Shown here: piece by piece, positions 42,851 to 44,297 of the stretch | Position numbering within the stretch: the stretch's first letter is position 1 | How the letters are laid out: every line of letters begins with the position of its first letter | Assembly: GCA_902794895.1 (NCBI GenBank) | Contig: CADBIY010000001.1 | Coordinates: 62,001-126,000, forward strand | Direction: 5' to 3' | From: Candidatus Avelusimicrobium vaccinum | GTDB taxonomy: Bacteria > Elusimicrobiota > Elusimicrobia > Elusimicrobiales > Elusimicrobiaceae | Length of the DNA: 64,000 bases | Program-made: the position numbers and the translations under genes | Notes under the pieces: generated by a model | What the model saw: the letters and a program-made list of their open reading frames with translations, nothing else | Database searches by the model: none | What the model was told of the DNA's origin: nothing

Positions 42851-42880
42851 TTGCACCAAAACATTATTTTTTACTACACT
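42851..42880 (+). promoter_or_regulatory. Promoter of the lysine leader-lysA operon
   Basis: TTGCAC (42851-42856), 18-base spacer, TACACT (42875-42880). The ATG of the leader peptide follows after exactly six bases, so the mRNA should begin at that codon. Confidence 0.65.
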
Positions 42881-42886
42881 ATTTGT

Positions 42887-42976
42887 ATGGCAACTTTATT
42901 TTTCGTCAAACGCAGCAAACAAAGCAAAAGCAAAAAACGCTTTTGCGCAGTCGCTTGCAAGTATACGGAAAATTAA
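42887..42976 (+). CDS. Lysine-rich leader peptide upstream of lysA (29 aa)
   Basis: A 29-codon frame encodes a basic peptide whose residues 8-18 are KRSKQSKSKKR: five AAA lysine codons within ten, six Lys in all. It starts at the transcript's predicted first base and ends at TAA 42974-42976. A GCAAAAGC/GCTTTTGC hairpin (42924-42931 with 42939-42946) lies in the coding part, and a terminator stands 22 bases beyond the stop, immediately before the lysA ribosome site. The position, codon bias and alternative structures fit a peptide-type attenuator sensing lysyl-tRNA. The peptide itself probably has no other role. Not recognised from any family. Confidence 0.65.
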   Translation: MATLFFVKRSKQSKSKKRFCAVACKYTEN

Positions 42977-43031
42977 ATGATTCATTTTTAACTGTTAAAA
43001 TCCCTGTGCTTGCAAGCATGGGGATTTTTTT
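42953..43031 (+). promoter_or_regulatory. Attenuator: competing antiterminator and terminator before lysA
   Basis: Terminator: 43000-43010 pairs with 43015-43025 (ATCCCTGTGCT with AGCATGGGGAT, two G-U pairs), then seven T. Antiterminator: 42953-42965 (GCTTGCAAGTATA) can pair with 43005-43017 (TGTGCTTGCAAGC) over 13 consecutive positions with two G-U pairs, which uses up the terminator's 5' arm and loop. The shared CTTGCAAG palindrome makes the two folds mutually exclusive. Confidence 0.7.
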
Positions 43032-43040
43032 GGAGGATGT

Positions 43041-44297
43041 ATGTTTATTGGATATCAAGACGGAAATTTACAAGTAGAACAAGTATCGTTGGAAAAAATT
43101 GCACAGCAAGTCGGCACGCCTTTTTATTGCTATTCGTATGGGCAACTGGCAGCCAATTTGAATGCCTACCGCCGGGCGTTGGAACCTTTTAATGCGTCTA
43201 TTTGTTATTCGGTAAAAGCCAACTCGAGCTTGGCGATTGTATCTGCCGTAGCGGCACTGGGCGGCGGGGCGGATGTGGTTTCGGGAGGGGAACTCTTTTT
43301 AGCGTTGCGCGCCGGAATTAAGCCTGAAAATATCGTTTTCTCCGGCGTAGGAAAGACGGAACAAGAACTTGCCGAAGCCGTCACGCACGGTATCCGGCAG
43401 ATCAATGTGGAATCGGCCGAAGAACTGCAAATGGTGGCGCAAGTAGCGCAAAAAATCGGCAAGCGTGCCAATGTTGCGTTGCGCGTCAATCCAGATGTGG
43501 ACGCGCTTACGCACGTTAAAATTACAACCGGTAAAAAAGAAAACAAATTTGGTGTTCCGTGGCCGCACGCACACGAACTTTATCACGCCGCCAAGCAAAT
43601 GCCGTCGTTAAACGTGTGTGGCATTGCGGTGCATATCGGCTCGCAGCTACTGGATTTGGAGCCGTTCCGCTTAGCGTTTGGACGTGTGGCAAAAATGGTG
43701 GAGGAATTGGAAAAGGACGGCATCTCAATCCAAAATATCGATTTGGGCGGCGGCCTGGGAATCAACTACAATGTAGAGCTCCCGCCGACGTGCGAATCGT
43801 ACGCCGAAGTCGTGCGCGAAACGCTGGGTCACTTACATAAACACATCATCGTGGAGCCCGGCCGCAGCGTGGTGGGTAATGCGGGGATGTTGATTACGCG
43901 CGTAATCTATACCAAACAAACGGAGCAAAAATTATTTGTCGTTACCGATGCTGGTATGAACGATTTAATCCGTCCCGCCATGTATGATGCGTGGCACAGC
44001 ATCTTGCCGGTGCACCGCACAGGAGAGCCGCCGGTAGTGGCCGATATCGTCGGGCCGATTTGCGAATCGGGCGACGTGTTCGCCAAAGATCGCATCATCG
44101 AACCGATGCAATCGGGCCGCTTATTAGCTATAATGTGTGCAGGGGCGTACGGCGAATCGATGGCATCACAATATAATTTCCGCCCGGTTCCGCCCGAAGT
44201 TTTAGTGCGTGACGGCGAATTTTCCATTGTGCGTCCGCGGGAAAGTTATGAGCAAATGCTCGCCGGGCAGACCGTTCCGGAATGGGTAAAAAAATGA
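43041..44297 (+). CDS. lysA: Diaminopimelate decarboxylase
   Basis: A 418-residue PLP enzyme of the alanine-racemase fold that makes L-lysine from meso-DAP, the last step. YSVKANSSLAIV holds the PLP Lys; DLGGGLGINY and EPGRSVVGNAG bind the phosphate; CESGDVFAKDR has the catalytic Cys. GGAGG lies right after the attenuator T-run, so the terminator hairpin controls both transcription and access. It overlaps the aspartokinase gene by four bases (ATGA). Confidence 0.95.
   Translation: MFIGYQDGNLQVEQVSLEKIAQQVGTPFYCYSYGQLAANLNAYRRALEPFNASICYSVKANSSLAIVSAVAALGGGADVVSGGELFLALRAGIKPENIVFSGVGKTEQELAEAVTHGIRQINVESAEELQMVAQVAQKIGKRANVALRVNPDVDALTHVKITTGKKENKFGVPWPHAHELYHAAKQMPSLNVCGIAVHIGSQLLDLEPFRLAFGRVAKMVEELEKDGISIQNIDLGGGLGINYNVELPPTCESYAEVVRETLGHLHKHIIVEPGRSVVGNAGMLITRVIYTKQTEQKLFVVTDAGMNDLIRPAMYDAWHSILPVHRTGEPPVVADIVGPICESGDVFAKDRIIEPMQSGRLLAIMCAGAYGESMASQYNFRPVPPEVLVRDGEFSIVRPRESYEQMLAGQTVPEWVKK

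Follow-up and report, generated by a model that had tools for sequence, protein, structure and literature searches.

A predicted lysine-codon attenuator on a leaderless transcript upstream of lysA in Elusimicrobiaceae

The lysA locus and its leader

Lysine genes are usually controlled by riboswitches, T-boxes or proteins. Here we describe the region in front of lysA, the gene for the final step of lysine synthesis, in Candidatus Avelusimicrobium vaccinum (Elusimicrobiota; Elusimicrobiaceae), which belongs to a family of gut bacteria. It lies within a 64,000-nucleotide (nt) stretch of contig CADBIY010000001.1 (GenBank assembly GCA_902794895.1, positions 62,001 to 126,000, forward strand), which as a whole we call the window. 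Between a promoter and lysA is a leader that holds a short frame with clustered Lys codons, a terminator, and an antiterminator pairing that excludes the terminator. Comparison with related genomes and folding models lead us to predict, with high confidence, that this leader acts as a ribosome-mediated transcription attenuator, with charged lysine tRNA as the quantity sensed. The features of the locus, in window coordinates, are as follows.

42851..42856, + strand: -35 element TTGCAC, read from the sequence; TTGC lies 17-18 nt from the -10 element in 29/29 related loci
42875..42880, + strand: -10 element TACACT, read from the sequence, with the leader ATG 6 nt downstream; this exact distance recurs in 29/29 related loci
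42887..42976, + strand: predicted leaderless leader-peptide frame, 29 codons, MATLFFVKRSKQSKSKKRFCAVACKYTEN, TAA stop at 42974-42976; read from the sequence, with orthologous frames in 34 genomes
42908..42937, + strand: candidate sensor codons, Lys 8, 11, 14, 16 and 17 (all AAA in the window), invariant in 25 aligned peptides
42912..42958, + strand: region 1:2, candidate anti-antiterminator from the minimum-energy fold; outer stem 42912-42916 with 42953-42958
42924..42946, + strand: coding-region hairpin, GCAAAAGC (42924-42931) with GCTTTTGC (42939-42946), candidate pause hairpin and core of region 1:2; 96.4% of cells paired in relatives
42953..42969, + strand: antiterminator 5′ strand (region 2), inside the leader frame; 16/17 pairs with 43001-43017, supported by covariation
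43000..43031, + strand: Rho-independent terminator and T run, abutting the lysA Shine-Dalgarno sequence; read from the sequence and covarying, with a terminator before lysA in all 37 functional leaders modelled
43001..43017, + strand: antiterminator 3′ strand (region 3), comprising the terminator 5′ arm, loop and part of the 3′ arm, so that its pairing excludes the terminator stem
43032..43036, + strand: lysA Shine-Dalgarno sequence GGAGG, read from the sequence
43041..44297, + strand: lysA, diaminopimelate decarboxylase, 418 amino acids, ATG at 43041, the predicted regulated gene (TIGR01048, 494 bits against a cut-off of 298)
44282..45025, + strand: aspartate kinase gene (ask), 247 amino acids, catalytic domain only, sharing 16 nt with the end of lysA (PF00696; TIGR00657, 218 bits)

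In the promoter, an 18-nt spacer separates the -35 and -10 elements, and the leader ATG at 42887 follows 6 nt after the latter. The same arrangement (TTGC, a spacer of 17-18 nt, a -10 element, and 6 nt to the ATG) is common to 29/29 related loci; the last distance is 7 nt in genome G088 and, by eye, also in G104 and G105. A generic sigma-70 scan of the window did not list this promoter. The leader mRNA is predicted to be leaderless, with its 5′ end on, or immediately beside, the A of the ATG.

An earlier note, made from the window alone, had named the promoter, the ATG, the 29-codon frame, its five AAA codons and the hairpin, and our reading of the sequence reproduced these coordinates. Its terminator at 43000-43025, followed by seven T, was correctly placed except that the first T closes the stem: there are 11 pairs and a tetraloop, and the run of seven T spans 43025-43031. 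Its 13-pair antiterminator (42953-42965 with 43005-43017) is likewise present and incomplete; the pairing extends to 42969/43001, where it comprises 16/17 pairs with a single C-C mismatch. What that note overlooked is region 1:2, an upstream segment that could sequester the antiterminator strand.

Sites resembling this promoter occur elsewhere in the organism's own genome. Among 29 TANACT-N6-ATG sites examined there, 9 open frames of at least 150 amino acids, one of them resembling RsmI; examples from the genome-wide set are L096, L100, L103, L113 and L120. The pattern is not enriched in that genome relative to its reversed control. Leaderless genes in the genus look real, judged from such sequences.

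Conservation of the leader with lysA

What decides for an attenuator is comparative evidence, rather than the window sequence alone. A search with leader DNA using blastn returned no orthologue beyond the window's own locus, because the leader is too diverged for this approach; a search by lysA, followed by a covariance model, succeeded. The lysA search yielded 30 loci of the same genus, and the 29 with full upstream DNA were aligned in detail. We built the covariance model from 26 of these 29 and ran it on 66 genomes of the genus, taking weak matches (E from 1e-5 to 1e-2) as chance. The leader was present upstream of lysA in 34/34 assessable genomes; in G089, where lysA had no leader match, the gene runs off the end of a contig. 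The leader was absent from every one of the 31 genomes that lack lysA (0/31), which indicates that leader and gene have been gained or lost together. The earlier note had tied its proposal to a Lys-rich frame and an alternative pairing recurring in close relatives, and both occur at every assessable lysA of the genus. The 31 genomes lacking lysA and leader are predicted to belong to lysine auxotrophs or scavengers.

Alignment of 25 distinct leader peptides reveals the motif K8…K11-Q-x-K14-x-K16-K17, in which all five Lys are invariant and their neighbours vary; the full set of invariant residues is M1, K8, K11, Q12, K14, K16, K17 and C20. A sixth Lys in the window's frame is encoded by AAG. 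Across the leaders, Lys codons alternate between AAA and AAG, apart from codon 11, which is always AAA; this interchange suggests that mainly the amino acid is kept. Regional identity follows the proposed functions, with high values for the Lys codons (0.83), antiterminator strand (0.81) and terminator (0.86), and low values for codons 2-7 (0.58) and the spacer from stop to terminator (0.49). The leader thus has what would be expected of an attenuator's putatively translated short frame: clustered Lys codons, in a frame found in 34 genomes.

Four further leaders were found in two sister genera (G104, G105 and G102 of g15; G091 of g12). They encode 5-7 Lys in 21-31 residues, and each has a terminator and an antiterminator. 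The G091 peptide, MLKNAKKTDSVKKGSKKTLGA, is accompanied by an antiterminator with 13/13 pairs, and neither peptide nor strands share evident sequence with those of the window. In G091 the leader stop precedes the antiterminator strand, so that a terminating ribosome would cover only its first half. No comparable Lys leader with a terminator was found upstream of lysA in 20 genomes of other families of the phylum or in 9 genomes of family f2, the latter inspected by eye. Among the genomes compared, this predicted leader is known only from Elusimicrobiaceae.

One additional leader copy, MVSLFFVKRVSKQSKSKKRFCVPACGN (L066, G062:C23:12279-12417), has the same promoter and no lysA downstream. It is followed by an unrelated terminator without antiterminator pairing. 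It is either an orphan small RNA or part of a contig from another species, the G062 genome being 6% contaminated.

Covariation between antiterminator and terminator

The antiterminator spans 16 nt with 14-15 pairs. In relatives, 90.6% of antiterminator cells are paired (near-gapless segments), compared with 33-45% in slid controls. Both sides have changed in 7/16 pairs, and 0/500 shuffles were as good; the terminator in front of lysA also covaries among related loci. On the lysA tree, one antiterminator pair switched on both sides between GC and AU no fewer than three times; well-supported branches force two of these switches, and no half-changed intermediate is present. The window's antiterminator duplex has a predicted energy of -26.6 kcal/mol versus -13.1 ± 2.8 in dinucleotide shuffles, and its leader fold has a z score of -2.8. 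Antiterminator energies were better than shuffles in 37/37 functional leaders (z from -3.0 to -8.0), and the orphan copy without lysA failed this test. When terminators were swapped between diverged groups the duplex usually became weaker, an effect clearest for the window, L024, L034, G091 and G102; between certain close designs the terminators can still be exchanged. By covariation, shuffles and slid controls, the predicted antiterminator is one that is mutually exclusive with the terminator.

These data bear on a simpler explanation, that the frame encodes a small basic protein with a function of its own and that the terminator behind it is an ordinary one, with lysA expressed by readthrough or from another promoter and no switch involved. 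The frame is indeed conserved in 34 genomes, and most terminators leave some readthrough. Such a protein does not account for an antiterminator that covaries with the terminator, for a C-terminal half that tolerates frame changes (see below), or for the loss of the leader together with lysA, and we consider this explanation extremely unlikely.

In one clade (L018, L019, L024 and L029-L032), the sequence TTTGCAACG before the terminator is complementary to a CGTTGCAA-like sequence after the T run. The resulting extra stem, between the leader stop and lysA, could form only in read-through RNA.

Natural frameshifts and the role of the peptide

Two natural variants help to distinguish whether the codons or the encoded peptide matter. 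In G023 the frame shifts after KHNKAKK and continues as RALPACLQFRG; in G062 a stop directly follows KKRFC. Both changes leave the Lys codons intact and keep antiterminator and terminator, and in both the altered stop still places the ribosome on the antiterminator strand. Together with the unrelated leaders of the sister genera, they suggest that the system depends on Lys decoding and RNA geometry and on no particular peptide.

This matters for the possibility of nascent-peptide arrest, in which leader peptide and ribosome would sense free lysine or another small molecule instead of slow decoding of Lys codons. As might be expected of an arrest peptide, conservation of the segment KQNKSKKxSC is strong and extends to Q12 and C20, which are not Lys. 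However, the codons for Q12 and C20 lie in or beside paired RNA segments, the G023 frame changes right after the Lys codons and that of G062 ends there, and the G091 and G102 peptides are unrelated and have only Lys richness in common. The conserved residues around an arrest site that would identify an arrest peptide were not found in this set of leaders, since frameshifted or unrelated peptides keep the design. We therefore regard arrest as very unlikely.

A related idea is that the leader is a general sensor of ribosome slowdown, responding to any amino acid shortage or to antibiotics. By the geometry described below, the antiterminator strand would be freed by a stall anywhere from codon 8 to codon 18. 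Against this, the five Lys are the only invariant residues of the stalling zone apart from Q12, the unrelated leaders of the sister genera converge on Lys and on no other residue, and the controlled gene is lysA. We consider a sensor without specificity for lysine very unlikely.

Ribosome position, folding and a model for attenuation

To relate ribosome position to RNA structure, we combined footprint geometry with folding constrained by the ribosome and swept over chain lengths. A ribosome halted at the final Lys codon of the cluster has its footprint edge at leader nt 61-67 in most leaders; the antiterminator strand usually starts at nt 66-73. A ribosome that has reached the stop codon covers most of the strand. 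Across 38 sequences, including the orphan, the antiterminator has a median peak probability of 0.66 when the ribosome is stalled at Lys, 0.005 when no ribosome is present and 0.00 when it sits at the stop; the window gives 0.98, 0.98 and 0.00. The computed behaviour in which a stall frees the strand and the stop covers it is clear in 20/37 leaders. In the folding of most relatives, region 1:2 blocks the antiterminator when no ribosome is present; in that of the window it does not.

Based on these results we propose the following model. Transcription would begin on the A of the leader ATG or beside it, and the product would be translated as a leaderless mRNA. When Lys-tRNA is plentiful, the ribosome would reach the stop and cover 42953-42969, allowing the terminator at 43000-43031 to form and turning lysA-ask off. 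When Lys-tRNA is short, the ribosome would wait at Lys codons 14-17 with its leading edge about 6 nt before the antiterminator strand. The waiting ribosome would melt region 1:2, the freed strand would pair with 43001-43017, and RNA polymerase would enter lysA.

Several observations weigh against this model. The constrained folding is an equilibrium calculation at each chain length and does not describe kinetics; because the full-length terminator wins at equilibrium, the decision would have to be kinetic, as in trp. Under the Lys stall, 17/37 leaders have an antiterminator probability of at most 0.5, and the window leader also favours the antiterminator when no ribosome is bound. Region 1:2 is paired in 91.3% of cells overall and shows little covariation beyond coding expectation: its outer stem, which overlaps the antiterminator 5′ strand, is paired in 86.8% of cells with little covariation, and the coding-region hairpin shows a double change at one pair only. 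Lys sensing alone gives no explanation for the invariance of Q12 and C20 (window peptide numbering). Finally, several g15 genomes, the majority of that genus, and one other g12 genome contain lysA without a leader, which implies that this control is not indispensable.

Lysine pathway control

The aspartate kinase gene, which overlaps lysA, is presumed to be the second gene of the lysA transcript. It is the only aspartate kinase homologue found in the genome, and no ACT domain was found in it (PF00696 only). An aspartate kinase without an ACT domain should lack lysine feedback, and attenuation would then remain as the control of the pathway.

Another RNA control would be an unrecognized lysine riboswitch (L-box) or Lys T-box, these being the usual RNA controls of lysine genes. 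At Rfam gathering scores the window contains only tRNAs, with no L-box or T-box match, and L-box model RF00168 matched 0/66 genomes of the genus while giving matches in control genomes. The leader is also short and mostly coding. We attach next to no probability to this explanation.

The absence of an L-box match and the lack of an allosteric ACT domain in the only aspartate kinase found, beside lysA, raise a broader idea. In Elusimicrobiaceae the leaderless Lys-codon attenuator may have taken over lysine feedback completely, such that the pathway is set by tRNA charging and not by free lysine, and the device may have arisen anew, or been recast around unrelated peptides, inside a single family. 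We offer this tentatively, as a possibility that we hold to be somewhat doubtful.

Two other genes lie near this transcript. Upstream, 41207-42796 encodes a Cys-rich protein of 529 amino acids that starts like a type IV pilin at its N-terminus; this gene has its own terminator at 42810-42838. Downstream, 45960-55145 encodes a 3061-amino-acid PfaA-like polyunsaturated fatty acid / polyketide synthase (TIGR02813, 934 bits, slightly below cut-off); a PfaA-like gene is also near lysA in G086, G028 and G072, the three relatives in which a larger neighbourhood was inspected.

Comparison with known systems

A conserved, covarying lysine leader peptide would represent another RNA solution for control of the diaminopimelate pathway, and would extend leader-peptide attenuation to a phylum for which we found none described. 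The more than 30 natural variants, with two frameshifts and an unrelated peptide among them, make the sensor codons, the footprint geometry and the antiterminator rules directly testable, along with how ribosome and polymerase stay coordinated on a leaderless mRNA. The predicted attenuator is unusual in its amino acid, its gene and its phylum, and is unusually well supported by comparison.

The literature searched contained no lysine leader peptide. A leader peptide of the Thermus thermophilus lysine cluster was reportedly described by Tsubouchi and colleagues (J Biol Chem, 2005), in which case the earlier note's remark that it knew of no peptide attenuator for lysine would have a counterexample. 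It is likewise said to attenuate lysine genes; that cluster belongs to the alpha-aminoadipate pathway, whereas lysA here belongs to the diaminopimelate pathway. The L-box (RF00168) also controls lysine genes, often via a terminator, but it binds lysine directly through a large aptamer, has no leader peptide and is absent from this genus. A survey of Actinobacteria reported no RNA control of lysine operons, citing the L-box elsewhere (PMC1262725).

The leaderless arrangement has precedents, contrary to the earlier note's claim that no known peptide attenuator lacks a 5′ leader. The Sinorhizobium meliloti trpL transcript starts at its ATG (PMC7298713), that of Corynebacterium glutamicum ilvL starts one base before it (PMC11857589), and leaderless poly-Cys open reading frames of mycobacteria are presented as attenuators where PMC13236596 cites Canestrari 2020. 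All of these share with the predicted attenuator a leader frame that begins right at the 5′ end of the transcript or beside it. Their signals are Trp, branched-chain amino acids or Cys, and their hosts are Proteobacteria or Actinobacteria.

The closest likeness in overall design is to the trp/his-type attenuators (Escherichia coli trpL and hisL), which have also been catalogued in Actinobacteria (PMC1262725). Shared features are a leader peptide rich in codons for the end product, a terminator before the structural gene, an exclusive antiterminator in the leader frame, a candidate 1:2 hairpin and a controlled gene from the same pathway. In contrast to these systems, the amino acid here is lysine, the leader has no Shine-Dalgarno sequence, the host belongs to another phylum, and the antiterminator pairs with the terminator 5′ arm, the loop and part of the 3′ arm.
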